NCBI GenBank assembly: GCA_921293015.1
Contig: OV121096.1
Span: 11,225,000-11,288,999 of the forward strand
Origin: Phorcus lineatus
Lineage: Eukaryota > Mollusca > Gastropoda > Trochida > Trochidae
Reading direction: 5' to 3'
DNA: 64,000 nt
Below, piece by piece: positions 4,716 to 54,198 of the stretch. Positions within the stretch are counted from its first letter, which is position 1; every line of letters starts with the position of its first letter. The position numbers and the translations under genes were made by a program. The notes under the pieces were generated by a model. The model worked only from the letters and a program-made list of their open reading frames with translations, was not told where the DNA came from and searched no databases.

Positions 4716-4837
4716 ACCACATCGCACTGGAACTGGTCCAGGAAACATGTTCGAAGAAGGTGACCATATGACTACTTATTATGTAAGCGACAATAAGGGA
4801 GCCGCTTCGTCTTGTCATGTTACCATCGACGTCAAAG
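4716..4837 (+). CDS. Gene A: HYR domain 1, C-terminal half
   Basis: 122 bp, RTGTGPGNMFEEGDHMTTYY then VSDNKGAASSCHVTIDVK, the closing half of a HYR domain. Same length and phases as gene B 54606-54727. The preceding exon, which must end in phase 2, was not found between 1 and 4715. Confidence 0.82.
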
Positions 4838-4869
4838 GTAGGAGCACGAAAATCTCCTTGAAATGCGAG

Positions 4870-4871
<2 letters not shown>

Positions 4872-4905
<34 letters not shown>
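4872..4905. repeat. (AT)n microsatellite
   Basis: Perfect AT dinucleotides just after a gene A donor. Read-through gives spurious YIYIYI open frames on both strands. Confidence 0.9.
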
Positions 4906-4907
<2 letters not shown>

Positions 4908-4936
4908 ATATTTGAAAAAGAGTTCACAAGTATACA

Positions 4937-5171
4937 GTATTATATATTCAAAGAAAAAAAATGACACATGGCCAACATTGCCCCAAAATGTTTCCTTTCT
5001 TCTAGGCATTGTGTCTTCTTGTATACCGTTAATATATACACAATATTTGAAAAAGAGTTTTCTTGTAGGCATTGTGTCAACATGTTGATAATAAAACATG
5101 TTGAGTAATAAAACATGTTGGGGCAATGTTGGCGATGTGTCATTTTTTTTCTTTGAATATATAATACTGTT
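4937..5171. repeat. Hairpin (foldback) element
   Basis: The left arm (about 4937-4996, TATATTCAAAGAAAAAAAAT then GACACATGGCCAACATTGCC) is reverse-complementary to the right arm (about 5108-5171). The spacer has a further direct repeat, CAATATTTGAAAAAGAGTT, at about 4906 and 5041. Confidence 0.7.
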
Positions 5172-5261
5172 GAAAAGACTTGTTATCAAGTCGAAATGCG
5201 ACGCATCCAGTCATCATTAAAATGATATCTACACCAAGTGTCGTCTGAAGTATTTTATTTT

Positions 5262-5263
<2 letters not shown>

Positions 5264-5329
<66 letters not shown>
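5264..5329. repeat. (AT)n microsatellite
   Basis: About 32 AT units. Such palindromic tracts are unstable and can seed rearrangement. Confidence 0.9.
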
Positions 5330-5330
<1 letters not shown>

Positions 5331-6062
5331 TTCATAGTTAAAGTAATAAAATTAATTAATAGATAAATAAATATGTTAGCCACAAGTTTCCTTTGGGTGT
5401 TATACTCACTAATTATGAACTGACATATTTTTCGATTATTTGAAGCCGTCAAACTACTCGCCGTTATTAGCTGTCAAAGAAGTGAATATTATAGAATATC
5501 GCTTCTCGGGGTAAAATAGAACAACCGAAATTTTATCTTAACCTTAATTTTGAAACAAATACTATGTATAGTGTCAGAATCGACCGGTGATTCGGATTTT
5601 GAACTCCCTTTGGGAGAGCCTATGAGGCAACGTAAAAAAGGTCCGTGCCAAATGTATGAGTGCCGAAAGCATTGCCATAGCATGACATGTTCGTGAGATT
5701 GTTTTCAAGGGTTGTAAGTGTTCTCACAGTTTTTACGAATCATAATGTAAGTAGGCATAGTGTGAGCGAGTGAGTTAGGGTTTAACGTGCTTTGAACAAT
5801 ATTTCAGTTATCAAACACGTGGATGACAAGCATCCAAAAGAGAGTGGACAGATAAGGGAGAAAGGGATCGAAAGGTTGAGGGAAAAGACGGAAAGAAAGG
5901 CATATAGTGAGAGATAGACAACAGGTTTTAGAAGGACTCAAATTTAGTCTGGCTTCTACCTGTCGACCTGTCCAGCTTGGATGTCCATACAAGGAGCATG
6001 AAAGCTCCAGCTGGCATAGCTCGTGGGGTCTTTGAAGCACGCAAACCACCACACCACGTTAA

Positions 6063-8958
6063 GGATGTTCGCTCCTCACCTACTGCGCATGACCAAATTG
6101 TCAACTTACAAGTCAAAGTTGCAAAACCTAAAAAGCCTGAAATCATAATGTTCTTATATTATAAACCAAAATGAAGCGGTAATTTCTCAATTTTGATGAT
6201 GTCTGATTAAATATTCATCAAAATTAACAAACGTAGTATTTTTACGACAACCGAAATGAAGTTACGGAAAGTGGTTATTTCGGCCGATTGCGCATAGTCA
6301 GTGAACAGTGGAAATAAACAGAGGCGGCCCAGTCTCATGTTACAGTCGCATGTGTTTACATTCGCCCTCAAGTTTAGTTCCCGGTGTATACAAGTGTTGA
6401 AACACAAGATATCAAGTCACCAAATTGAGGTTATGAAGCTGCCTAAAGTGTGTAATGAATTTACAAACCCCGCGCGAAGCAATGACCAATGTACCATTTC
6501 TCCGAGGCAAACATGGCTAGACAAAACACCACCAAATCTCGACACTTTACATGGATTTTCTCGATTTATTTGTTGAAGGTGATGAGGGAAATAATCAAGC
6601 TTTCCCTATTATATACTGCCCGACAGTGACAGGAAAAAATTCGACTAAAACCGCTGCCACTGAAAACTAAGAGTAACAGTAAACACATGTCATGCTTGTC
6701 GGCTGATAGTACCCTGTTGAAATTAGGTCATGCTTGTCAGCTGATTCCGATGCGAGCGACAGGGCGAGGCCAACAAAAAACAACAAATCACTGGCACCGG
6801 TATGTAAAATGTATTATGAACTCTAAATCTTCTTACTTTTCTGTCAACATCATTTCAATTTATGATTTAACTTATCTAATTTCATTTCATAGTGATTAAT
6901 TATCTATTTCTGTATCTTATTGTAATTAAATAACCTACTCTCTTGCTGAAACAAATCAAATAATACTTATATATTTTTTGTGAATTTTAGCAATGGGTCA
7001 TGACATTTATCTGTCACATTTTTCTTGAATTTACATTTACATTGAATGCACTGTAGACATTATTGTAGACTTAATATTCATTATTCTTGTCATTTAGAAC
7101 CTGAGATCACCACTGAAAAAGATGCTGTCAGCTAAAGCTGCAGAAATTGAGGTAATAAATTGATAATTATCAAATATATAAAGCAAATAAACACTTTTGA
7201 TTCACTGATTGTATTTGATTTATTCTGATCATTGAAAAAATCATCATTGATGAGAATATATTATTGAACTGAATACTTATATATGTTGTTGCTGCAAAAA
7301 GTAGAATGTATAAGCAGAAATGATGAATATTAAAAAAAGTTTTTATAATTATTTGGCGGCCAATGACTGAAATATTGCCTACGCCCTAGCAGCATTAGAC
7401 AGCCTACTCATTTGAATAATTAATTCATTACATAACAATAAGTTATATTGTTTTTAGGTCACAATTATATATATGTTTGAAGAATCATACTAATTATGAC
7501 AAATCAAGAAGGAAAAATCCTAATTGACCATTGTCAAGAATTAATTACTTTCATCATAGGTATTTTTTGTAATAATAAAACCTTTGTATATTTCTGTGTT
7601 CATGAATGATCATGTAATATTAACCTAATGAGAGAAGAAAGGTCAAAAAGGTCTTTCAGACTAGACATAATCAAATTTTTAAAAAATTAATTCCCCTTAA
7701 ATTCATAAAATATTGTTGGGAAGTTTTTTTAGGCTAGTGATTATGTTATGTGAGGTGTACAATGTTCTTTAAAACAAGATGACATTGAAAGTCACATCTT
7801 TCCTACAAGCTTGTTGCTCTTATTCCAAAGGCCAAATTATCAATTATGTTTATCATTGTATAAACTGTAATGGATTTTTAAAAAGATATGACAATATTGG
7901 CTGTTTGCCATTATGAAATGAAAAGGAATAAATTCTAATGAGTGTAGTTAACAAACTTATTCATCTTTTCAGGTAGATGTGAACTTTCATCCGATGCAGA
8001 GTAGAGGATAAACCGTTCTAATGGATGCTGTGACATACAGATCATACAAACCTATGATTTCCCAGTGTGTCTGTGAATCTCAGTTGGAGAATAATGACTT
8101 GATACATTCCTTTTTGGACAACATACAATAAACAAGGATTTATAGTTTCTGGTTGAGTTAAATTAATATTTTGTGTACCTGACAAGACACATTTCTCTAG
8201 GTATTTTATGTGCGCTTCAAGTTGACCAGTTGCTTCCCTTTATGATTTTTTGATTTTCTGTACCATTTGAAATGTGGTGTGAGAAAAGAAATAAATTTTA
8301 TTTTTGTGTTATTTCTACTGTTTTGTATTTTCTTCATTTTGATTTATTATAAATCAAAGACATATGGTGTGTTTAAAGGGAAAAAACGTGTCTGATGTAT
8401 TTTGAATTAATTCATAATTTTGCTGACTCATCAATTTTCAATTGTAACTATCATTTAAGCCAGTTTTATTTACTGTTTATCTTAGCAAGTAGATGTTGTT
8501 GAATGAATATGATTTGTATGTATGCATTCAGTTAGATTTTTAGATAATGAGTGGAGGAAAGCATGTTTTTAGTACAAAAATAGCTTGAATGTTGTTTATT
8601 TAATTGAAATGTTTCAATACATGTTGCGCCGTAGTGGCTAAAAACCCACACTACCATACATATTTTTTACCTTTTTCTGGAAGAAAATTATGTTAACTCT
8701 AACATATTTTCATATTAAAAAAAGTTTAATACAGGAAATAATTAAAATTTAAGATTTCTCAAAAAAGGTCAAGATTTCTCCATAGACTCCCATGTTAAAA
8801 CTGTGACTCACAAAGGGATCTTTGTCTTAGAATATTTCGAAAAAACCCACACTAACCCCTATTTTTTGGGGTTCATATTTCAAGCAAATACACTTAACTT
8901 TTGAAAAATACAAGTTAGAAAAAAAGTTTAATACTTTAAATTTGAGGAGCGAACATCC
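6063..8958. mobile_element. TTAA-flanked element with inverted ends (piggyBac-like non-autonomous?)
   Basis: GGATGTTCGCTCCTCA at 6063-6078 is perfectly inverted at 8943-8958, and TTAA flanks both ends (6059-6062, 8959-8962), as for piggyBac-type target duplications. I see no transposase in the 2.9 kb. An exon-like piece at 7096-7149 (AACCTGAGATCACC... followed by GTAATA) and an AATAAA near 8290 hint at captured transcribed sequence. It could instead be two unrelated solo ends. Confidence 0.45.
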
Positions 8959-9071
8959 TTAAGGTATTGAGTCCAGTGGTGGCATATGTAGGCATAACAA
9001 CTTGGGAACTGTCTGAGTTGCGTCTATACATCAAGTGCATTTGTAATTAATTTTGGCTGTGATAGATTTAC

Positions 9072-9245
9072 CTTGACATGCGCCTAGATGACTGTATTCT
9101 CCATTTTTGTTACAGGTTGTTACTAAATTCCCTTGTAGGTGAAAACCTTCATTGCAACTGAGGAAGCAAGGCCTTCCAAACACCGTTCCTTCCGGACAGA
9201 TAAGTTTCCCATTACTAATGACGGGCTCGGGTTCACAAGATTTAG
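9072..9245 (-). CDS. CCP/sushi exon in inverted orientation inside gene A (second of two)
   Basis: 174-bp minus-strand exon: KSCEPEPVISNGKLICPEGT, then GRPCFLSCNEGFHLQGN and TCNKNGEYSHLGAC. It has AG/GT borders and phase 1 at both ends, and joins in frame to the exon at 9415-9588. It resembles gene B exon 7 (C.PEP...G...C) but points against gene A. Confidence 0.82.
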
Positions 9246-9414
9246 CTGCAAGGCAATGGCCAATAGGTAACTTTCCTTTAAAACTCAAGTTTTATGACTC
9301 ATGATTTCAGATTCAAAAGACGTATGCGTATTTACAAATAAATACTAATAAAATAATATGTCTTACGACGGATTCAATTATGTTTATAATTGATCGTTTA
9401 TTTAAACTACTTAC

Positions 9415-9588
9415 GTTGACAATCCCCTAACGTCTCACTCCAGGTTTCCTTGTCGCAGGTGACAGAACTACTGCCTTTTACTTCAAATCCATCGTCACAC
9501 TCGACTGAACATTGTGACCCAGATACGATCCCGTTGGTACAGGATCTTCTTCCATTTTTAGGCCACGGTAGATCGATACAGCGGTAGG
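9415..9588 (-). CDS. CCP/sushi exon in inverted orientation inside gene A (first of two)
   Basis: 174-bp minus-strand exon: YRCIDLPWPKNGRRSCTNGI, GSQCSVECDDGFEVKGSS and CDKETWSETLGDC. GTAAGT donor, phase 1-1. It is the likely match of gene B exon 6. As no other minus-strand coding exon is seen nearby, the pair looks like an inverted piece of gene A rather than a separate gene. Confidence 0.8.
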
Positions 9589-9669
9589 CTTAAAAAAACT
9601 TCGTTTGTCAGTTTTCCATTTATTAACTTTTTTCGCTGTTTCTGTCAGTTTATACATTAGATAGAACTT

Positions 9670-9771
9670 GACCTGTGGGCATTATCACAAAAGTAAGCCC
9701 TCCGCCCTCGTGAATTGCCGTGGGCATTTCCCGGTGGCATCGGGCATACGTTTTTATAATGCCCGCGGGTC
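9670..9771. repeat. Short palindromic element
   Basis: GACCTGTGGGCATTAT at the left is inverted with two mismatches as ATAATGCCCGCGGGTC at the right, about 100 bp in all. It lies next to the inverted CCP exon. Confidence 0.55.
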
Positions 9772-10293
9772 ATGTCTTATCCTACACTTAAATACGCCGA
9801 CCTCCCTTTAATAATCCATATAACTTACAAAAGCTTAGATTTGAATATTTTATCTGCATTAAGGATGTAAGGATGTTTGTTTTATGTCAGTTTGAACAAT
9901 TTGGACCTAATTTAAACAGGCCGGTTGCAATCAGATTACATGCTGAATTTTAAAAGACTTTCGATGAACTTTCAGTTAATTTCCAAACAAAATATTTGCG
10001 GAAGAGGCAAATATTATTATTTTGAAGGTTTGAGTGCTTGAAAACAAAGCTTCAAATGCTCATTACTCACAAATTCAATGTTTAGGCTCTGATAATAGTT
10101 TCCCCTCAATCTAGGAGCTGTTATTTAAGGGTAATAGGTTTTAAAACATTTATTGAAAAAAAATGTGCACTGATGTGGGCAATAAGACACTGATGTTACA
10201 TCAAGGACAAATACAGTTATAGAAGGATTGTTGATAAACTATGGTCGAAGTCCAAATCAAAAAATTGTTCGCCTGAAATGGCAAAGTCAACTA

Positions 10294-10295
<2 letters not shown>

Positions 10296-10341
<46 letters not shown>
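10296..10341. repeat. (AT)n microsatellite
   Basis: About 22 perfect AT units, on the far side of the inverted CCP exons from the AT tracts at 4872 and 5264. Confidence 0.9.
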
Positions 10342-10344
<3 letters not shown>

Positions 10345-12370
10345 AAATAAGTAAATAGAAAATGCAAAAATTATCCCCCGCTACAGAAGGTAAAGAATAA
10401 ATATATTTGCATGCGAAAATAAGATGTCTCGGCCTAATATGAACCAGTTCGTGGACATTAAGAGCGGATTTAGCATTATTTGCAGACGAATATGTCGTGG
10501 CTACCTTTTCAGAGCACTGCGGTCATTCAAAAAGAGTGAGATGAGTTTAATTTAATTCTTTCCGGGTTTACAACTTAACTAAAAAACTCTCAAGTTTGTT
10601 GTATCAAGAAAATGATAAGGGTGATAGATTCCTGACTTGGCCCAAATTATGTACATCGCCTTCAGCTTCTACTCGACCGCTTCCTTGTATGACACATTCT
10701 CTCCCAACAGAGGTATCTCCGTCATAAGTTTCTATAAAACCTCTGCCTTAATACGAAGATTTCACGGGCTTCCGGCAGTATACCCTACCGGCACAATATC
10801 GCAGCTTTAACTACTTGGCAATATTTCAGCCAATGAAAACAACGAATGCATGATTAACATATTTGTTGTCACGCAGGTCTGTGCAATGACACAGTCGCAA
10901 AATGAGACGTTTGTGTTCTCAAGATGACTAAAAGTGCAAGGTACATATTCGAATAATGTTTACCTTTTGGAAAGCTTAATGAAATAACTTGAACGATTTA
11001 GATAAGTTTTGAAACGGCGTCGCTGATTGCACAACTAACTTTGATTGCATCCAATCAGCTATCAAATTTCTAGACCGAGACACCTTTGTATCAAACAGGG
11101 GTTGTAAAGGAATTTATGACGTTAGGGGGGATTATCTGTGTCAGTGACATAATTAGAGTTAGATCAACTAAATAATTGTCTTGCTCTCTCTATGAGCGGC
11201 GGATTGTCTGAATTTTGTCATGGCACACCCCTTGACCATACAAATGTATCTTTAATTTGAAGGAATCTTGTTTCAAAGTGCATTTAAATCCTTCTGCAAA
11301 CGCCATAAATGTGTTTAAAAGAAAGAGAGGGTTGGCTGCTTTTCATCACACAAAAGCGTGTTTGTCTTCAATGGTGTGCATTTTGCTCTTACTAACGAGC
11401 TTAATGGACATGTCTTTATGATTCGTAGCTGATATCTATTTTTAAAAATAAAACTCAGATGAAATCTTGAAAGAATTGTTTCTAGGTTTTTGTGCCTAAA
11501 GTCTGAACGATTTTACAAGCTGATGATGAAATATTTTCCATATGGTCATTTCATTGAACGTCACTGAACCATGTAAATCCTAAATGAATTTCAACAGTTT
11601 CTATTATGATACTGTTATAAAGAGGAAGAAAATGATATGTCTGAAAGGTATGCTCTTGTTTTTTGAGGGATTAAGAGCAACAATAAAATCTTTTTTTGCC
11701 CATTTTCGAGATTTATCAAAAATTTGTTAACGCTTTCTTCAATTGTCTTCAAATATCAGACGCTGAGGATCAAATGCAAGTGTCATCGGCAAATAACGTG
11801 ATACAATTTGTAGTTCAGCATTATGTCATTGATATAAATAAGTAATGAAAAGGACGAACGAATGAGCCTTTAGGTACTCATGCATTTAATTTACATTTTC
11901 TTTATTGACTTCCTTTCCTATCACCTTTGGCATAACATTTTGATGTTTCCATTTTGATGACAAGCTACCCCGTTCAACAAACAGAGAGGTTATGCAGTTG
12001 AAAGTGATAGTAGTACTCAATGATTTATGTTATCTGGTTCACTGGTTTTGTTCACAAGTACATAAGATGAGTTTGTTCACAAGGTTCGGTAATTGCATGG
12101 AATAGTTAATCATCGCACGATCCTATTGTTAGGTGTCCAAGTTATATCCAGTAATTTATGATATTTTCGTTCACTTGCTTCGCCAGTATTTCATATTAAT
12201 TTGAATGAAACGCAGCTTTTTCTTTTTCTGCTCCCTGCTCTCCACAGTGACAGTTCGGCTTGCAATGCAAAGCTTGATAGCTTCTGGTCAGCGATGACCA
12301 GCAAATAGGAGTGTGTACCCCTTATCACGTGCCAACTGGAACATTTACATTGTATCAAATTGGATTACAG

Positions 12371-12619
12371 ATACAACCCCACCTGTCTTCCTATATGGAT
12401 GTTCCCTTGGTAGAAATCGTTATTATGCCGAGAAGCAGAACCAGCCTAAATCGGTGACTTGGCCGCTACCTGAAGTAACTGATAATACAATCAACGTGAC
12501 GGTTACTAGCAATCCTGCCAATGGGTCTCTGTTTGAGCCTGGAGTAACTTCAGTAACATTGACAGCAACTGATAATGCCGGAAACATTGCAAACTGCTAC
12601 TTTTGGATAGAAATATACA
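12371..12619 (+). CDS. Gene A: HYR domain 2
   Basis: 249 bp: DTTPPVFLYGCSLGRNRYY, VTWPLPEVTDNTINVTVTSN, then GVTSVTLTATDNAGNIANCY, a complete HYR with the T.TATD.AGN..C ending. Phase 1 at its start, so it can splice directly from 4837 if the inverted CCP exons are skipped. Donor GTAAGT. Confidence 0.9.
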
Positions 12620-14277
12620 GTAAGTAGACATGTAGCTTGTAGCAATAATGAATCATTATTTGACATGCGTTTGTCAAAGGGGAACACAAGGGTTACGTTG
12701 CAGTAAGAATACTCCTTAAGCACTAACTATTATGGATGGATTATTTGAATTAAGTACAATCAATAGAAAAATGCTTCAGCCCTAAAAGAATACCAAACGG
12801 TTAATCAGTTCTTTTATGTTATAAGTTATAAATTATAGGATATCGCAGTTAACGCATAGGAATAACTGAAATGAAGTTCTTAACAAATTTCCTAACCATA
12901 CATATGGATTGTATTACAGAAATACAAAAATGGACATTTTTATAATAATGTGCTTCAGCTTGTCCATTAATGAATAACGTGAAATGTAAGCAATGTCACA
13001 CTGTATTGGGCTCTGTTGCTATATGAAAATATTCATTTGTATTACTACTTGACATTCCAAATGGGTATTCACAGTTACTGAATGAATATGTGTTATTCAT
13101 ATGAATTATTCATTTCCAGCCCTGCAATGCCCTGAGCCTGACCTTGGAGATGAAAGGCTGATGTACAATTGTTCTGAAGGATATGGGTATGGCTATTCTT
13201 GTTCACTTATGTGCGAGGGCAACGCTCCACAGGAAGGATCCTCAACAATCTTGTGTGAGATAGATGAATCGGCCCATCCTCCAAAAGCAATGTGGACATG
13301 GCCAGATGACGCCAAGAAACCTTTCTGCAAAAGTGAGAGGACAAGTTTTGAATTTTGAAAAATATATTTTATTTTTGGAAACAAAGAATTTAGCAAAATT
13401 TTGCAAGTCTGATAGCAAATTATAAACTTTTACCTCATACCAGGATATTCCCTTTAGGATATTTCCATTAGAATCGAAAAATGCCCCCAGTCACGCTAGC
13501 CATTGAATATTGAAATAACAGTTTATCAACAATCAACAAAGAGTTAAAAGTCAATGCAGGTAATGCATTTTAAAATATTTTACAATAGGGTAACAAAGAT
13601 GTTATATACCAAAGTCTTTGGTTAAGCTGCAGTTCATAAGATGAGTCTTATCATGATGAATCTGGCTGGTTAATGCAAAAAGTTAGAGAAAAATAGCACA
13701 GCAGAATTATCGTAAAGACAAATGTAGAAACCAGAAAGCTAAATGTGTCGAAGCCAGCTCTATGGGTAACTATGTTTCAATGTCTTTCCAATTTCAAAAA
13801 ATCTCAAAGCAATCGAATAATGCATGGGAAGGACGGACATTTCTAGATAGAAAGTGCTATGTGGAAAATTCTATACTAAGCTTGCTTGCATAATCAAAAC
13901 TAAGTGTCGGACCCATTAAACAGTGAAACGGAGTTACATTGTGTTCACCTTGTAAACAATAATATTTTCATAAAACCTGATCACGTTTTTATTTTGACTC
14001 CGCTTTCTAAGCAAACTCTCAATGAAGATATTTTTGTACCAAATAGGTAAATTGGTTACATGAAACATGAATAAACACAGTGACATAAAATACTTTTTTT
14101 TTAGACTAAAACACATTTAAGTCATTTTAGCATCTTATACTAGTCGATAAGAATATATGATATGCACTTGATTTAGATAATTCACATTAAAACTAGATTT
14201 TATCATTTAAATCTCTCCTCTTTGTGCGTTTAGAAAAAGTTGTATTAATGGGAGTACCAAATTTTCTCGTGTCACAG
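12620..14277. other. Gene A introns either side of the CCP exon 13120-13332
   Basis: 500 and 945 bp of AT-rich intron apart from the exon itself. I see no repeat or regulatory signal. Confidence 0.4.
13120..13332 (+). CDS. Gene A: CCP/sushi domain
   Basis: 213 bp: LQCPEPDLGDERLMYNCSEG, YGYSCSLMCEGNAPQEGSS and MWTWPDDAKKPFC. Canonical CCP cysteines; pairs with gene B exon 9. Acceptor ATTTCCAG, donor GTGAGA. Confidence 0.88.
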
Positions 14278-14472
14278 GTTATAACTGCCCCGATTTACCG
14301 GCTCCCGAAAATGGCGCCCTGGCATGCGATGAATGGTTTGACGGACCCATGTGTGTTATGTCGTGCAATGAAAAATATGATATCCCACAGAATTCCCCTG
14401 ACAACGACATCTATACGTGCGGGAAACAAACTGGATTATGGTTTCCAAATGATAAGGTTTATGGGTGCACAG
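14278..14472 (+). CDS. Gene A: CCP/sushi domain
   Basis: 195 bp: YNCPDLPAPENGALACDEWF, DGPMCVMSCNEKYDI and CGKQTGLWFPNDKVYGC. Same length as gene B exon 10, with which it shares NGALACD.W.DG. Donor GTATGT. Confidence 0.9.
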
Positions 14473-14534
14473 GTATGTACTTTCATTTCATGAAGGGTAA
14501 AAAAAAGATCGAACAATTAGTTACTGTTTATTCA

Positions 14535-15235: not shown

Positions 15236-15715
15236 AGATGAGAAGACCGGGGCAAATGGAGTTGAAAAACGAGTTATACTACTTTGCGGGGTTATGTATG
15301 GATGAAGCCACGCTGCAAAATATTTCAGAAAACTTTGTTCACATCCTCATCACCAACCAAAAATTCAAAGGCATCTGCGGAGAGTTTGGTTCGGACTGCC
15401 AAGCCAAGTCTGTTGATGTGACATGTGGAGAAACCAGCAACAGGAAACGCAGACATGTCAACAAAAGAGAATCCCATATGGTTATCATCGAGTTCAGTGT
15501 CTACTATGAGTTGTCTGGAGATGATTTCTCTAGTGCGAGTTCTGCAGCGAGGGAAAACTTAAACAGCCTCATCGATGTTGTCTATGAACTATTGGACAAT
15601 GGAGAACTGGATATGACTGAGATGGGACTGACTGTGCAATCAGACTCATATTTACCTGGCTATCCGACATATCGCTGTGAAAATGGTGTTGTTGACATAG
15701 AAAAAGGGTCATGCC
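15236..15715 (+). CDS. Gene A: middle domain 1 in a single exon
   Basis: 480 bp: ELYYFAGLCMDEATLQN, VDVTCGETSNRKRRHVNKR, MVIIEFSVYYELSGDDFSSA, then a helix and YPTYRCENGVV, ending C. The basic cluster R-K-R-R is followed by a strand, as in gene B. There the same domain is cut by an intron just before VTCG. It aligns over its length with gene B exons 11 and 12. Confidence 0.85.
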
Positions 15716-15876
15716 GTAAGTTTGAACCAACTGAAATATACTACATGTCAATGCTATGAAAAATCATTATGATAATACATCATAAATTTTAGTTAACACA
15801 ATCTATTAACGTTCTTTTCTGCTAATGATTGCAATTTCGATTGTATGATTGATTGTTCGAGTGTTCGCTGGATCAG

Positions 15877-16035
15877 GTGGATGTCCCAAAGGGACCTTCA
15901 CAAGTGGATCTGAGGGTTGTGTGGACTGCCCTGTAGGCAAATACAATGACGTCGACTTTGCCAGCAGTTGTACTAGTTGTGATGAAGGATTCTCCACCAA
16001 GTCCACAGGATCAACGTCATCCGACTACTGTATTG
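15877..16035 (+). CDS. Gene A: GCC2/GCC3 repeat
   Basis: 159 bp: GGCPKGTFTSGSEGCVDCPV, GKYNDVDFASSCTSCDEGFS and SSDYC. Canonical GCC2/GCC3 repeat, same length and phase as gene B exon 13. Confidence 0.9.
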
Positions 16036-16450
16036 GTAAGTGAAACAATATAGATTTTCTTTCGTAAGTTGTTTCTTAGATAAAAGAAACCTCTACTTAG
16101 TTCCATTCTCTTGGGCAATTTGACAATTGTTGAAATCGAGGTGTCAGTAACGAAGCAGTTGCATGAAGCAATGGTTTTAGTGCTGGTTCTTTTCTTCGTC
16201 GTAAGGTGGTCAATGTCAGGTGGCGGTTGTGTGAGTAAAGTAGGCGATTGTGGTAACGGTGATGGTAATTGTCGTCATACATTCAGTCTTGTTGATTTTC
16301 CAACACAATAACTGTTACTATGTAAAAATAATTGGACACTGTCTCATGCGTCTTGCACCACAAAACTAAATTGTAATGAGAAGATATTAAACATTTACAA
16401 AGTTGTGTTTGTAAGGGAATGGTTGTATCATTTCTATATTTTCTTCTCAG

Positions 16451-16609
16451 CCAAGTGTCCTACCGGTTCCTACTCATCTGACGGTATTGAGCCCTGCATC
16501 CTCTGTGATTCGGGAACGTTTGCTGACTCTATCGGATCAACCTCGTGCTCACCGTGCTCTGAGACTGAGACGTCCTTGCACGGAGCAACCAGCTCAAGTG
16601 ATTGTGTAG
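16451..16609 (+). CDS. Gene A: GCC2/GCC3 repeat
   Basis: 159 bp: KCPTGSYSSDGIEPCILCDS, GTFADSIGSTSCSPC and SSSDC. Acceptor TTCTCAG, donor GTCAGT. Pairs with gene B exon 14. Confidence 0.9.
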   Translation, partial: PSVLPVPTHLTVLSPASSVIRERLLTLSDQPRAHRALRLRRPCTEQPAQVIV

Positions 16610-16847
16610 GTCAGTGTGAACTGGAATACTGAACACCAATATTGATTCATCCAATATCCCAATTTTAAAAATTCAACTTAAAAATTCAATATGTTTTGCC
16701 ATATCAACAGTAACCAGATATCTTATTTTGTACTTGTCGGATGTAAAATATTTACTTCAGAAAAAAACAAACTACAAATAAATTTTTCAGTTGTTTTCAT
16801 CATGTAAAGCAGTTATCATTTTTATCATTGCTTTTTTTATGTTGTAG

Positions 16848-17676: not shown

Positions 17677-17783
17677 GTAAGTAATATATATTTTGAGCAT
17701 TATATTTCATAAACAAAACTTCTTTTTGAACATTGTTATGTTAAAGTTCTTGGAACAACATTTTAACTGTTTTCTATCCACAG

Positions 17784-18014
17784 CTGAAGATGGATGTAAA
17801 GAAGACCCGTGTGGTTCCCATCCCTGTCAGGACACGTTAGGCAGTTTCCATTGTGACTGCCAAGATGGCTGGACCGGATCAACTTGTGAAATCCCTCCTG
17901 AATTCTGTGCTAATATCGAATGTCAGAACAACGCAATCTGTAAGAATGAGCTTACTGATTTTGCTTGTATGTGTCCTCAAGGTTTCAAAGGGGATTTATG
18001 CGAGATCCCAATAG
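17784..18014 (+). CDS. Gene A: two EGF-like domains
   Basis: 231 bp: EDGCKEDPCGSHPCQDTLGS, CDCQDGWTGSTC, EFCANIECQNNAIC and CMCPQGFKGDLC. Two complete EGF modules with the C.C..G..G..C endings. Same length as gene B exon 18. Donor GTGAGT. Confidence 0.92.
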
Positions 18015-19280
18015 GTGAGTGTTACAGGGGGAAGTATCTTTGCTTCCATTAAAATACCACATTTCCCATACCTAATTTACAGTTTCGAAGACAGAATAAC
18101 TTATTTGTACAAGGGGTACTGTTCTCTGCTTGATACAAAATACCTGTTTGAATCATATGCAACATTGTTGTTAATGAGAAACTCAGGTTCTTATGCTTCA
18201 TCTGTAAAACACAAATATGTCAAATGCTTAGATGTACTAACGTCTGGTACAACAGAACGTTTTACTAAAATCAAGAAACCATTTGCATTTAGCCTCGGAG
18301 AAACACTCATTCCTTTCGGCTTCAACAAACTCGTCGGATACTCACAATACTCATCCTGGCATGGCTGTATCCCTGGCTATTTGCGATAACACTCATATAC
18401 CCTGGGATATACCTATGGACTATCTAAAAATAGTCAACCAATAGCAGCGCTTGATATGCAAGTCGACAAATCAAGATTGCACAGCCTTATTCGCAGATTT
18501 CCGTTTGTGTTCTTTTCGGTTTATCAACGTGGAACTCATAGGTTCTCAAAACATTCTTTTCAAATATATACCACACATACTTTGATTTTATTCGAATAAT
18601 GACTGTGGTAAGGGAAGGCTCTCTTTAATTGGCGGCAATTTTATTGTGAACCACCGCGATAAAATGTTTTATTGACTGGATCAAAGGTTCAGTGGGGTTA
18701 TATCCAAGAGTATATGACTGGAGCGAGAGCGAATGATTTTTCCTCTTTTGACAGGATGAGTTGGCGTTTGAACTGTGGTAGTTAGTTTTTCAAAACTAAC
18801 TTAACTTATCTCGCTACCTATGGTTGATTCCTCTGGCTGTTTTTAGAATATGTGATGACACAAGTGACCACAGACGATATTTATATGTGATAAAGCATGC
18901 ATTCCTGCAGTGAGAATACAGAATTAAATCTATCGAAGTAGTGTTTATAATGCTACTGTGTTTTCGGATGGTCAATCCCCTCTATTTAAAATGTGGAATA
19001 TGTACGGGAAGGATTGCAAAATTAATTTGAAAACAATGTTTACTACAACACACACTCAAACGATCCCCACCCTTAAATATATGCACAAGAGAAAACATTG
19101 ACAAATTGAAGGCATATTTCCTTTACATGACAAATGTCTCCGTAAATATGTTTACCTATATCTAAAATACATAAATCATATGAAATTCTCAAAGAATTGA
19201 AAGTTTTTATCAATAGGAGAAGCATTTATAGAGCATGTCTCCATCTAAAACAACATCATTTGTTGACAAATATCTCCCAG
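18015..19280. other. Gene A intron
   Basis: 1.27 kb between EGF and TSP1 exons. An open frame at 18015-18389 lacks any recognisable domain and runs through the intron donor; I see nothing else. Confidence 0.4.
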
Positions 19281-22321: not shown

Positions 22322-23575
22322 GTAGGTATCGCGTATAATATACAAACAAAAATGTTTGTTAAAAGGATAACAACGCTGATTTTATTATACATGATTAAAC
22401 CTTAGCCTCATAATGCAGGTCATAATCACTGTAATGAATCTTCCCAGAGGATAATGTTGAGGGAAGGAACTCGCGATCGGCGTTGTTTTTCGTTTTACAA
22501 TCGTTGAATATATGCTGAAATCTGTACATTCGCTATCAACCTGAAAGCACGCACTTACTATGTCCATTTGAATGGTGCCATATCAACATACTTTAGAATG
22601 CTCATGACTGTATAGTTAAAGGAAAACTGCAGCAGGTCTACAAGTCTCTTTTAGTATATCTTGAAGAGATGGATCTTCAGTGAGGATTTGAATGAGTCAA
22701 GGTTAGTTTGTGATTTGATTGCTATGAAATGAATAAATTACTTCTGAAGACAGTCGGTACCATTGTCTTTGTCCTATCCTTGTGAATCTAGTTTCTTTGT
22801 AGCTGTCTATGTTTTGTTCATGCGGATCCATTTACTTTCTTTTTATGCACATTAGAAGTTGTAGTTGGTGGTAAGTTTGTCAGCTAAGTTAGGCGCTGTA
22901 ATCGGCAGCTTGGGTTGGACAAGGGTAATAATGAAGGGAGCGCACTAAACATGCATTCGATGTGGATATGTGTGCTATACAAATATCCAAATTATTGATT
23001 ATTATAAAATTAAACTTTGCAATCGGATGTTTTTTTAAGTCTAGATGATGAGTCAATCTGAAGACTTATATTACTCCGACCCATACAAATTTATTAAGTG
23101 TGAAGAACAACTCAAAAGTATCACAATTTGATGAAAGAAGTAACGACCACCCATCACTACCAACGGGATTCGTTAACGATACAGTTCGATCATGTGCATC
23201 TAAGGGCAAGACTTTTTAAAGTTCACTTAAAACTAAGAAAATCATAACCTTATATTAAGATATGGTAATCATGCCTATCTCAATGCTAAGAGAGCCTCGA
23301 AATGAATATATATTAATGACCATTTGAATATGTTTGTTTATTATTAGATTTTGCAATCGGAGAAAACTTGTTGGTTTTTTTTTTGATAAACGTATTCTTC
23401 CATATGTTAATACTGGTCATGCTGGTCATAAACAACCGTTCTTCACTTCACGGGAAACATCATAAATCATAGATATTCGCCTCGTCAACAAGAGTCATGA
23501 TCTTTATTTTGAAGGCAGTATACTCATCTTCATAAGTATTCTTAAAAAACATCAATTAATGAAATTGTATTTCAG
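22322..23575. other. Gene A intron
   Basis: 1.25 kb. At about 22905-23010 a sequence ending GTGCTATACAAATATCCAAA resembles the 3' tail of a SINE. Otherwise nothing recognised. Confidence 0.35.
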
Positions 23576-23872
23576 AAGCAGAAGGTGCTGTATCATACTC
23601 GGCTGTCACTCAAGTCAACTACCCTGAACTCCCGTGTACGACTGGCGAGCAGGAGAAAGAAGAGATTATCACCCAGATATCAGAGAGCATCAGTGATCTC
23701 CACTGTGTCAAGGACAACACCTGTTCAGCAGAAGCTAAGCAAGATACTTGTGGACAGGCATCCACCCTTCGGAAAAGAGACATCACACCAACAGTGATAT
23801 CAGTCACCATGACAACGGAAATGACGCTCGACATATCAGATGACTTGGAGGCGTATGCTAGCGACGGAACTG
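23576..23872 (+). CDS. Gene A: middle domain 2, first part
   Basis: 297 bp: VTQVNYPELPCTTGEQEKEE, IITQISESISDLHCVKDNTC, STLRKRDITPTVISVTMTTE. It shares LPC, a helix, C.(K/N)DNTC and a K-R-D site before a strand with gene B exon 21, and is 17 codons longer. The donor is followed at once by an AT microsatellite. Confidence 0.82.
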
Positions 23873-23873
23873 G

Positions 23874-23896
23874 TATATATATATATATATATATAT
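23874..23896. repeat. (AT)n microsatellite at a donor site
   Basis: Ten AT units start within the donor of exon 23576-23872 (GTATATAT). Confidence 0.85.
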
Positions 23897-24985: not shown

Positions 24986-25219
24986 CAATCTGGGAATGAT
25001 CACAATCTGCAGATTGTTCGCTCACAATCTGCAGATTGTTCGAACAATCTAGGAATATTTTTCATTCCTAGATTGTTTAAACAATCTGCAGATTGTGAGA
25101 CCTGAACAATCTGGGAATGATCACAATCTGGGAATTTGCTTGTTTGTAGAATATTTTGCATTGTAAAATGAGCTTATTTAGGTTTTTATTTTTGTTTATT
25201 AGATTGTGACAGGTTCATA

Positions 25220-27010
25220 GCTCGCCTTTATGTCAAATTGAGGGAGTATAGGGGTCGATTCCTAGATTGTGAAGGGCTAACATATTGTCGTTATGTCAAA
25301 CTGTGAGGGTGTATGGGTCGATTCTCAGATTGTGAAGGGCTTACAGCTCGCCTATATAACATACTGAGGGAGTATTGGGATCGATTCCTTGATTGTGAAG
25401 GGCTCACAGATCGCCTATGTGTCAACCTGAGGGAGTATAGGGGGTATAGGGATCTATTCTCGGATTGTGAAGGGCTCACAGCTCGCCTATATGTTAAACT
25501 GAGGTAGTATATAGATCGATTCCTAGATTGTGTAGGCCTCATAGTTCACCTTTATTCAAACTTAGAGGGAGGGTATAGGAGTCGATTCTCAGATTGTGAA
25601 GGGCTCACAGCTCGCCTTTATGTCAAACTGAGGAGAAGAGGGGTCGATTCTCAGATTGTGAAGGGCTCATAGCTCGCCTTTATGTCAAACTGCGGGAGTA
25701 TTCGGGTCGATTCCTAGACTGTGAAGGGGTTACAGATCGTTATTTTGTCAAACGGAGAGGATAGAGGGGTCGATTCTCAGATTGTGAAGGGCTCACAGCT
25801 CGCCTTTATGTCAAACTGCGGGAGTATTCGGGTCGATTCCTAGATTGTGAAGGGCTCTCAGCTCGTCATTTTGTCAAACGGAGAGGATAGAGGGGTCGAT
25901 TCTCAGATTGTGAAGGGCTCACAGCTCGTCTTTATGTCAAACTGAGGAGAAGAGGGGTCGATACTCAGATTGTGAAGGGCTCAAAGCTCGTCATTTTGTC
26001 AAACGGAGAGGGTAGAGGGGTCGATTCTCAGATTGTGAAGGGCTCACAGCTTGCCTTTATGTCAAACTGAGGAGAAGAGGGGTCGATTCTCAGATTGTGA
26101 AGGGCTCATAGCTCGCCTTTATGTCAAACTGCGGGAGTATTCGGGTCGATTCCTAGACTGTGAAGGGGTTACAGATCGTTATTTTGTCAAACGGAGAGGA
26201 TAGAGGGGTCGATTCTCAGATTGTGAAGGGCTCACAGCTCGCCTTTATGTCAAACTGCGGGAGTATTCGGGTCGATTCCTAGATTGTGAATGGCTCTCAG
26301 CTCGTCATTTTGTCAAACGGAGAGGATAGAGGGGTCGATTCTCAGATTGTGAAGGGCTCACAGCTCGTCTTTATGTCAAACTGAGGAGAAGAGGGGTCGA
26401 TACTCAGATTGTGAAGGGCTCATAGCTCGTCATTTTGTCAAACGGAGAGGGTAGAGGGGTCGATTCTCAGATTGTGAAGGGCTCACAGCTTGCCTTTATG
26501 TCAAACTGAGGAGAAGAGGGGTCGATTCTCAGATTGTGAAGGGCTCACAGCTCGCCTTTATGTCAAACTGCGGGAGTAAATGGGTCTCTTTTCAGATTGT
26601 GAAGGGCTCACAGCTCTCATTTATTTGAACTGAGGGAGTATAGGAGTCGATTCCTAGATTGTTAAGCGCTCACAGCTCTCCTATATGTTAAACTGAGGTA
26701 GTATGTGGATTGATTCCTACTTTGTGAAGGCCTCATAGCTCATCTTTATGTCAAACTGAGAATGTAAAGGAGTCGATTCTCAAATTGTGAAGGGGTTAAA
26801 GCCCACCTATATGTCAAACCGAGGGAGTATACGGGTCGATTCCTAGATTGTGAAGCTCTCATAGTTTGCCTTTTTTCAAACTGGGAGGCTATTGGAGCGC
26901 GTCTGTATGTCAAACTGAGGGAGTATAGGGGTCTATTCTAAGATTGTGAAGGGCTCAGATATCGCCATTATGTGAAACTGAGGGAGTATAGGAGTCGATT
27001 CCTAGATTGT
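25220..27010 (+). repeat. 62-bp satellite array, left arm
   Basis: About 29 diverged copies of a unit containing AGATTGTGAAGGGCTCACAG, then CTCGCCTTTATGTCAAACTG. A block of about seven units repeats with a period near 439 bp (TGCGGGAGTATTCGGG at 25691 and 26130), so there is a higher-order structure. Confidence 0.9.
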
Positions 27011-28104
27011 GAAGGGCATTGCGCTTGTCTTTGTTTGTTGATTTCGCTTGTATGGGGTTCAATTCACATATTGTGAATATGTGGAGGTAGAAAACTAAAT
27101 TTGTATGTCGATTCTGCGATTTTAGATTTTCATTAATCATAGTTTGCAGTGACCCGTATAACACTGTCTGGAGGGTGTTACTATTTATGTAGAAGTAAGA
27201 ATTAGTTCTTATATGTGTAAAAAGTTTGCGTATGGAAATCAATAAATAACAATTCATTATGAAAAGTAAACTTATTATCTGAAAAGTTAATTACACTGAA
27301 ATTTAATTCTTCACTCTCGCTTATTCAACTTAAGTTAGGTTAATTGAGCATAATTATACTATCTGTATCATCACAAAACACTAATCTCCTTTGGTATGAA
27401 TTACTTGCATAGACACTTACACTTACAGGGTACAATGAAGGAAATAGTCTCGTGATGCTAAAAAGAGTTTCAAACATCAAAGACAACAAATTCTGATTCT
27501 TATATTTATTGTTCATTATGGAAACTTGATAACTGTTACCTTTTCCCCTAATTTTCTTCCTGGATCGTGAGATTGAAAGTTTTTTATACGAAAGATGCAA
27601 AAATCGGAAAGTTACTTAATCTTTTGAGTTTGTATATAAACAGCTTTTAAATATATGAATTTATAAAATTTATAATACTCGAACAGTTAGCATTTTGTGT
27701 TGTCGTGAATAATGAGCCCAGATGTCTAGCTGGGTCTGCTTATCAAAGCAACGTGTCACTGTGTCGCGTCACTACTCAGACATGCGCGTAAATTTGCGTA
27801 CAATCACATTAACTTCCTCTCTATAATTTGATGTTTATCATGGGGCAAATACTTATGCAATAATGAATTGTCTGGAGTAAAATGTTTAATTGCTCTTCGG
27901 TCACACTATGGTCAACATTTTGACACATATTTTTCTTTAACGTTTTTAATAGTTTCCGTTATATCGGTTTGTGAATTTTACAAAGAAATGTTTTATTTGA
28001 TTTATTTGTTATCTGTTCATGATTCAATATTGTAAGAAAAAATAAAATAAAATCCATATTAAGCATTCTCTACCTTTGAATTTGGTACAGATGTAATTAA
28101 AAAG

Positions 28105-28458
28105 CTATAAAAATCGGTTGGGATTATTTATGAAATGATACACAGATATTATTAGGGATTCGTTAGCACTCTGTGACAAGGATTTGTCGCCGCTCAAGGT
28201 AGATTTTAATATTATATCGTTTTTTAAAAAGTATTGATTTGATCGGAATCTATCATATAGTGGGCATTCAAAGAAATAATGAAAGGGATCCTCCCGAATG
28301 TTTCCACAAGAACAGGCGGGATTTACTAACAACAGTAAGTGGACTTGCTTTGCGTAGTATATTTTCAATATGATGCTGCCATTTTCCATTTTCATCTGTG
28401 TAAACATGTTTTTATACCCCCGTATATCACGTAAAGTCGACCTATGAGCCCTTAACAA
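28105..28458 (-). mobile_element. LINE 3' ORF fragment in the centre of the foldback
   Basis: 117-residue frame with HLLLLVNPACSCGNIREDPF then HYFFECPLYDRFRSNQYF. C.CG...E...H....C is the zinc knuckle that follows the reverse transcriptase in Jockey/CR1-like LINEs; the typical C.P.Y...R follows. The frame enters the satellite arm at its start, so it is a truncated piece, not a full element. Confidence 0.7.
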
Positions 28459-30165
28459 TCTGCGAATAGACTCTTATACCCTCTCAGTTTGATAAATAGC
28501 CAGCTATGAGCCCTTCCCAATCTGAGACTCCTCTACCCTCTCAGTTTCATATATAGGCGAGCTATAAGCCATTCATAATCTAAGAATTGACTCCTATACC
28601 CTCTCAGTCTAAATATAGATTAACTGTTAGCCCTTCACAATCTGGGAATCAACACCTATACCCCCTCAGTTTGACATATAAGCGAGTTGTGAGCTCTTCA
28701 CAATCTGAGAATCGACCTCTATATACTCCGTCAGTTTGATTTGTAGGCGAGCTATGAGCCCTTCACAATCTGAGAATCGGCCCCTATACTCCCTCAGTTT
28801 GGCATAAAGACAAGCTATGAGCCCTTCACAATCTGAGAATCGATCCCTATACTCCGTCAGTTTGACATATAGGCGAGTTGTGAGCCCTTCACAATCTAGG
28901 AATCGGCCCCTATACTCCCTCAGTTTGACATAAAGACGAGCTAGGAGCCCTTCACAATCTGAGAAACGATCCCCATACTCCGTCAGTTTGACATATAGGC
29001 GAGTTGTGAGCCCTTTACAATCTGAGAATTGATCCCCATACTCCGTCAGTTTGACATAAAGACGAGCTAGGAGCCCTTCACAATCTGAGAAACGATCCCC
29101 ATGCTCCGTCAGTTTGACATATAGGCGAGTTGTGAGCCCTTCACAATCTGAGAATCGACTGCTATACTCTCTCAGTTTAAATAAAGGTGAGCTGTGAGCC
29201 CTTCACAATCTGGGAATCGACCCCTATACCCCCTCAGTTTGACATGAAGACGAGCTATAAGCCCTTCAAAATCTGAGAATCGATCCCTATACTCCGTCAG
29301 TGTGACATATAGGCGAGTTGTGAGCCCTTCACAATCCGAGAATTGACCCATATGCCCCCTCAGTTTGACGAAAAGACGAGCTAGGAGCCCTTCACAATCT
29401 GAGAATCGATCCCTATACTCCGTCAGTTTGACATATAGGCGAGTTGTGAACCCTTCACAATCTGAGAATCGACTGCTATACCCTCTCAGTTTAAATAAAG
29501 GTGAGTTGTGAGCCCTTCACCATCTGGGAATCGACCCCTATACCCCCTCAGTTTGACATAAAGACGAGCTATGAGCCCTTCATAATCTGAGAATCGATCC
29601 CTATACTCCGTCAGTTTGACATATAGGCAAAATGTGAGCCCTTCACAATCTGAGAATCGACTCCTAGATACCCTCTCAGTTTCATATATAGGTGAGCTGT
29701 AAGCCCTTCACAATCTGAGAATTGACCCCTATGCTACCTCAGTTGGACATAAAGCCGATCTGTGGGCCTTTCACAATCTGAGAATCGACGGCTATACCCT
29801 CTCAGTTTAAAAAAAGGTGAGCCGTGAGCCCTTCATAATCTGGGAATCGGCCCCTATACCAGCTCATTTTGACATAAAGACGAGCTATGAGCCCTTCACA
29901 AACTGAGAATCGATCCCGATACTCCGTCAGTTTGACATGTAGGCGAAATGTGAGCCCTTCACAATCTGAGAATCGACTCCTATATACCCTCTCGGTTTAA
30001 ATAAAGGTGAGCTATGAGCCCTTCACAATCTAGGAGTCAACCCTTACATCCACTAAGCTTGACATAAAGACGAGCTGAATGTCCTTCACAATCTGGGAAT
30101 CGGCCCCCATACCCCCTCATTTTGAGAAAGAGACAAGCTGATTGCTCATCACAATCTAGGAATCG
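28447..30165 (-). repeat. 62-bp satellite array, right arm (inverted)
   Basis: About 28 copies of the same unit in reverse complement (GAGCCCTTCACAATCTGAGA). Here units alternate between ACTCCGTCAGTTTGACATAT and CCCTCAGTTTGACATAAAGA types, a dimer-like order different from the left arm. Confidence 0.9.
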
Positions 30166-30395
30166 ATCTAGGAATCGCTAAATAGAAAAACCTTAATAAG
30201 CTAAATAATTCCCATTCTATAATGATGAAAATACTAATAAAACACACATTCCCAGATTGTGATCATTCCCAGATTGTTCAGGTCGCACAATCTGCAGATT
30301 GTTTAAACAATCTAGGAATTCCTAGATTGTGAGCAAACAATCTGCAGATTGTTCGAACAATCTGCAGATTGTGATATACCCCAGATTGTTCGTAA

Positions 30396-52997: not shown

Positions 52998-53180
52998 CTA
53001 TACACTCTGGAAGGTCTCCACGCCATGCTCCATCGAAGGCACAAACCCGGACACGTGATTTTCCTCGTTTGACGTCATATCCGGCTCTACATAGGTAGCT
53101 GCAAGCACTTTTAAAGTTGTACCCATTTGTGCATTCAAACGTTCCGTCCGGAATAGGTTCGGGGGCAGGGCAGGTGACAA
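52998..53180 (-). CDS. Gene B exon 7: CCP/sushi domain
   Basis: The 183-bp phase 1-1 exon reads VVTCPAPEPIPDGTFEC, then SACSYLCRAGYDVKRG, then RVCAFDGAWRGDLPEC, a complete CCP. Its likely gene A equivalent is the inverted exon 9072-9245, which has the same C.PEP...G...C opening. Confidence 0.88.
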   Translation of the reverse strand: MSPALPPNLFRTERLNAQMGTTLKVLAATYVEPDMTSNEENHVSGFVPSMEHGVETFQSV

Positions 53181-54009: not shown

Positions 54010-54198
54010 CTTCACAATGGGGTTCAACAGAGGACCACATTCCGGATATGTCACACTCTCTCCTTCTCTGACCGGCTAGTTTGTAACCATAGTAACAGCC
54101 GTAGTTACACGTTGTGCCATAGACAAAATCACTGCTTGGATGACACGTGTAGTAACCATTTCGAAACGTCGGACTCGGACCAGGTGAACATCGTATCA
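54010..54198 (-). CDS. Gene B exon 6: CCP/sushi domain
   Basis: One phase 1-1 exon of 189 bp encodes a whole CCP module: IRCSPGPSPTFRNGYYTC, then TTCNYGCYYGYKLAG, then RECDISGMWSSVEPHC. The cysteines and the W...P.C ending are canonical. The equivalent exon in gene A appears at 9415-9588 in inverted orientation. Confidence 0.88.

Follow-up and report, generated by a model that had tools for sequence, protein, structure and literature searches.

Genes A, B and C and the module order of gene A

The window analysed here, a stretch of 64,000 nucleotides from Phorcus lineatus (C37:11225000-11288999), contains two converging genes, gene A on the plus strand and its paralogue gene B on the minus strand. 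Profiles derived from exons of the window itself gave the order of gene A as HYR1b, two CCPs lying on the minus strand, HYR2, CCP3 and CCP4, and the same profile scans found an unknown module, two cysteine-rich modules, EGF-like modules and more exons after CCP4. The features of gene A are listed below; gene C, to which several are compared, is a close relative outside the window.

4718..4837, plus strand: HYR1b exon, the second half of the first HYR domain, with a phase-1 donor; PF02494, 26.0 bits; matches gene C
9072..9245, minus strand: inverted CCP2 exon; PF00084, 35.5 bits; 77% identical to gene C CCP2
9246..9414, minus strand: intron between the inverted exons; 36 nt at the CCP2 acceptor side still align to gene C
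9415..9588, minus strand: inverted CCP1 exon; PF00084, 34.9 bits; 78% identical to gene C CCP1
12371..12619, plus strand: HYR2 exon with a phase-1 acceptor; PF02494, 49.0 bits
13113..13337, plus strand: CCP3 exon region; 89% identical to gene C
14254..14488, plus strand: CCP4 exon region; 75% identical to gene C
15242..15736, plus strand: unknown-module exon; no Pfam match
15879..16646, plus strand: two cysteine-rich exons, presumably GCC2/GCC3-like; home-made profile
17777..18025, plus strand: two modules that we take to be EGF-like; home-made profile

Against the curated cut-offs of 21.7 bits for PF02494 and 20.7 bits for PF00084, HYR1b and HYR2 of gene A (26.0 and 49.0 bits) belong to the HYR domain and both inverted exons (34.9 and 35.5 bits) to the Sushi/CCP family, while a Laminin_G_3 match in gene A reached 21.7 bits, short of the 27.6-bit cut-off for that profile. 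Extracellular proteins of the SVEP1/polydom type combine CCP, HYR, cysteine-rich and EGF modules with von Willebrand A and pentraxin domains. Gene A has the CCP, HYR, cysteine-rich and EGF modules in common with them, but the module order differs in its partial protein. A literature search, which was not aimed at the organism, found no report of this gene. The exons at 15242-15736 and 23569-23896 are conserved between genes A and C and contain short basic stretches.

Gene A looks alive, since comparison with gene C gave a dN/dS of 0.257 over 799 codons in 11 forward exon pieces (dN 0.131, dS 0.510; the LamG exon and two upstream exons excluded from the totals), and since these two exons upstream of the window (w-5064 and w-3612 in window coordinates) match a paralogue at 28.5 Mb in the forward sense.

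The inverted CCP pair and its forward counterparts

The two CCP exons between HYR1b and HYR2 run opposite to their host gene. Each is 174 nt long (2 nt, 57 codons and 1 nt, phase 1-1), with an open frame on the minus strand and an AG acceptor and GT donor on its own strand. No plus-strand CCP was found between HYR1b and HYR2 in a six-frame scan of the window with the own-exon CCP profile, which covered matches to E = 5. The preliminary description of this DNA had placed two minus-strand CCP exons between 4837 and 12371 and held that they keep their order, their AG/GT borders and a phase-1 join on their own strand. Both coordinates and strand were confirmed, the exons passed the Pfam Sushi profile, and borders and 1-1 phases were verified directly; each inverted exon also pairs with its positional counterpart in gene C, so the order is kept as well.

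To place the pair among its relatives, we searched the whole genome (958 Mb, 74 contigs) with HYR2, which returned five matches at E ≤1e-5, including gene A itself. The closest relative of gene A HYR2 was gene C, located on the same strand ~80 kb away and 73% identical; the other three matches showed 51, 45 and 41% identity. Gene C has the order HYR1b, CCP1, CCP2, HYR2, all forward. In all four of the other A-type paralogues fetched (gene C, C37:28.5 Mb, C37:25.75 Mb and C39:4.19 Mb), two CCPs adjoin HYR2 on its strand, the second CCP at C39:4.19 Mb being a weak match of 15.5 bits. HYR1b lies on the HYR2 strand at gene C, at 28.5 Mb and on C39, and none was seen at 25.75 Mb. Both CCPs also run in the sense of the HYR exons in the two B-type genes, gene B and a copy at 28.5 Mb. 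The preliminary description had used gene B as its comparator, with CCPs at 54010-54198 and 52998-53180 in gene B's own sense; they were found so, but gene C is a much closer comparator. Orientation of CCP and HYR exons was thus uniform in 6/6 other blocks and flipped in gene A only. Because gene C and three more distant paralogues carry the CCP pair on the HYR2 strand, the forward orientation is most likely ancestral and that of gene A derived, which both supports and polarises the local inversion proposed in the earlier description.

Genes A, B and C cluster with a third related gene, D (w76.7-78.9k, minus strand), across window positions 1-64000 and C37:11289000-11348999. Similar groupings occur at C37:28.53-28.56 Mb, with A-, D- and B-type genes, and at C39:4.19-4.20 Mb, with A- and D-type genes.

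We take the inverted pair to be gene A's own missing exons, because its best matches are CCP1 and CCP2 of gene C (78 and 77% DNA identity). When 8964-9860 was searched against the genome (best 40 of 154 candidates), the only matches over the two exons, apart from the sequence itself, were gene C CCP2 and CCP1 on the opposite strand; the 51 rows among the matches listed comprised one self match, the two gene C exons and 48 copies of a short dispersed repeat. In a tree of 28 CCPs, CCP4 was grouped (96/93) and CCP1, CCP2 and CCP3 did not form single groups, with CCP1 and CCP2 groups present in 0% of 200 bootstrap trees; orthology therefore rests on pairwise identity and position.

As a genome-wide control, 150 scored Sushi matches out of 633 candidates gave 87 neighbouring pairs within ≤15 kb, whose strands agreed in 85 and differed in 2. 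A Sushi match flanked on both sides by opposite-strand matches was found in 0 of 28 clusters, 14 of which have at least three matches by hand count and could show it. This control misses weak exons elsewhere, as both inverted exons score below the 150 listed.

Preservation of the inverted exons and their flanks

Comparison of the inverted exons between genes A and C over 114 codons yielded a dN of 0.209, a dS of 0.728 and a dN/dS of 0.287, with no sign of decay: there were no stops, gaps or indels, and 12/12 cysteines were kept. Measured against the 28.5-Mb outgroup, private amino-acid changes in the inverted exons numbered 9 in A and 11 in C (CCP1, 2 vs 8; CCP2, 7 vs 3). The three forward exons had 21 in A vs 9 in C (P 0.04), mostly from HYR2, and inverted and forward exons did not differ significantly (Fisher P 0.09). 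In neutral simulations (2000 runs per step, indels not modelled), the probability of acquiring no stop and keeping 12 cysteines was 0.134 at 0.05 changes per site and 0.021 at 0.10. Judged by these comparisons, selection can have been lifted from the inverted exons during no more than a minor part of gene A's life, because the A-C dS is 0.73, half of which was put on the A branch by assumption. Since the exons have not decayed, either the flip is recent compared with the A-C duplication, or selection still acts on the exons (through polymorphism or another use), or, less likely, the assembly is in error. Exons that remain in use, or an inversion that is polymorphic, would predict the absence of decay equally well.

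Two further observations concern the forward exons. HYR2 (12371-12619) has 12 A-private changes vs 1 C-private change and an A-C dN/dS of 0.69, an excess compatible with a changed protein neighbour in gene A, for one exon of five chosen post hoc. The A-C dS is 0.28 in HYR2 and 0.22 in CCP3, compared to 0.60-1.39 in HYR1b, CCP1, CCP2 and CCP4, and this much lower divergence suggests gene conversion between A and C at 12371-13337.

The inverted segment spans at least 9067-9591 and at most 4838-12370, placing the left breakpoint within 4838-9066 and the right one within 9592-12370. The breakpoints are bounded only, because the introns of A and C no longer align: beyond the exon edges, the one clear alignment was a 36-nt stretch upstream of CCP2 (E 9.5e-5), and other A-C intron matches reached a best E of 0.007 vs 0.01 for the best shuffled control (10 shuffles per intron). 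The interval between HYR1b and HYR2 contains the following features in addition to the exons.

4872..4905: (AT)n tract, left of the inverted block
4934..5170: fold-back (MITE-like) element with arms of 67 nt, 93% complementary; a 60-nt part recurs near gene C
5265..5328: (AT)n tract, inferred candidate for the left breakpoint
5762..6058: interspersed repeat R1, left part; resumes after the nested element, from 8963 to ~8982
6059..8962: DNA element nested in R1, with 16-nt inverted ends beside TTAA
9628..9792: dispersed short repeat, ~40 nt from CCP1; accounts for 48 of the 51 match rows listed
10297..10340: (AT)n tract, inferred candidate for the right breakpoint
10695..11121: dispersed MITE-like repeat, 84-86% identical in at least 39 other places (best 40 of 3876 candidates)

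R1 is 84% identical to w109392-109684 on the minus strand near gene C, where the copy is uninterrupted. The nested element is 2.9 kb long, lacks any stop-to-stop frame of at least 100 codons, and is presumably piggyBac-like. A breakpoint at this TTAA element was ruled out by eye, as R1 continues past it as in the uninterrupted copy. From this comparison, no breakpoint would lie inside R1 or the nested element, unless the insertion came later.

A self-comparison masked for low complexity revealed no related inverted element pair flanking the block, and the opposed related elements expected at the ends of an inversion mediated by retrotransposon recombination were not found. Among the 25 longest of 184 inverted pairs counted, those spanning the block are AT tracts. 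Tracts of (AT)≥12 occur three times in 164 kb, all in the HYR1b-HYR2 interval, two of them to the left of the block and one to its right, an arrangement with a probability of ~1e-4 if the tracts were randomly placed; an 8-nt inverted match (P 0.012) lies at the borders of the 5265 and 10297 tracts. The idea of breakage at such tracts was formed after they had been seen, and three other loci contained 1, 0 and 2 tracts in 40, 20 and 20 kb, respectively. The AT tracts are the best candidates for the breakpoints, on evidence that is suggestive. Elsewhere in the window, between genes A and B, lie two mutually opposite repeat arrays with ~63-nt steps (24986-27077 and 28413-30388), the latter holding minus-strand open frames of 178 and 114 codons.

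Probable origin of the inversion and its likely consequence for gene A

Small inversions that carry exons have precedents. Such inversions, some of them polymorphic, are described between human and chimpanzee in PMC2603318, and there, as in gene A, a small inversion within a gene turns exons round; in the cases it describes, the inversions arose via inverted L1 or Alu pairs and were identified against an orthologue, whereas in gene A no such pair was seen and the comparison is with paralogues. According to PMC8794474, some ARY copies on the Drosophila simulans Y carry inverted exons 1 and 2, which resembles gene A in that a duplicated gene has two exons turned round in some of its copies, but ARY as described is Y-linked and multicopy with similarly expressed copies, while gene A involves an internal domain pair of symmetric phase. 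The cited part of PMC1779558 counts 143 microinversions between D. melanogaster and D. pseudoobscura, of which 0 overlap an exon of the host gene and 7 overlap exons of nested or overlapping genes; these share with gene A a small inversion within a gene, located in long introns, but the gene A inversion carries two host exons.

Taken together, the exon arrangement makes it probable that, after genes A and C split, a local inversion in the HYR1b-HYR2 interval of gene A reversed CCP1, the intron and CCP2, and that gene A now skips them. Genes A and C are nearby duplicates, and the inversion would have followed their split, in the long HYR1b-HYR2 interval of gene A, most likely when DNA broke or recombined at the (AT)n tracts around 5.3 and 10.3 kb, a route that is suggestive only. 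The gene A transcript would then join HYR1b directly to HYR2. That 4837 can splice to 12371 in frame, as the preliminary description had claimed, was verified by joining the exons in silico (...TIDVK-D-TTPPVF...). Gene A thus probably splices past the CCP pair and makes a protein without the two CCPs, and the flipped exons would be well-preserved relics of a flip that is young relative to the duplication.

The preliminary description had named exon loss by inversion, a new antisense transcript unit and an assembly error as its three readings. The good preservation of the exons could be accounted for in other ways. The inversion might be unfixed or reversible, with the forward arrangement persisting in the population or restored by flipping back at the AT tracts, and the exons selected there; the undecayed state of the exons, the self-complementary AT tracts on both sides of the block and the polymorphic exon-carrying inversions reported in humans (PMC2603318) would all fit. 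However, the assembly contains one copy of the block (best 40 of 154 candidates) with no sign of a second arrangement, and a fixed inversion that is young accounts for these data too, so we regard this reading as unlikely. A block that is forward in the animal and flipped by the assembly would likewise have kept its exons, but the 164 kb surrounding the site contain no N, which is evidence against a scaffolding gap, and no long inverted repeat pair was seen, AT tracts aside. The largest possible interval, 7.5 kb, would be spanned by typical long reads. The 12 A-private vs 1 C-private changes in HYR2, as might follow a real change of protein neighbour, also argue against such an error, and we consider it very unlikely.

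Less likely still, the exons might form or join a working minus-strand transcript, as their intact splice borders and frame and a constraint like that of the forward exons would allow. Between gene B and a point 30 kb upstream of the window, no further minus-strand match to the CCP, HYR, cysteine-rich or EGF-like profiles reached E ≤0.05, only weaker ones being listed there, and a stop lies 13 codons past the CCP2 donor. Hydrophobic start exons with a phase-1 donor numbered 0 in 9589-12370 and 0 on the other strand, a search of little power given a mean of 0.05 in shuffles. The most doubtful of the readings is a living switchable cassette, in which the AT tracts would flip the block so that individuals or cells make a long protein form with CCP1-CCP2 or a short form; if true, it would account for the absence of decay in the inverted exons.

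Exon shuffling classically relies on symmetric 1-1 exons. Small flips that carry exons were already known, and gene A is a clear new example, in which a local inversion seemingly removed a module pair from the protein by turning it round instead of deleting it, with the frame unharmed. With both exons still undamaged, this locus offers a way to learn whether a flip of this sort removes exons for good or can be undone.
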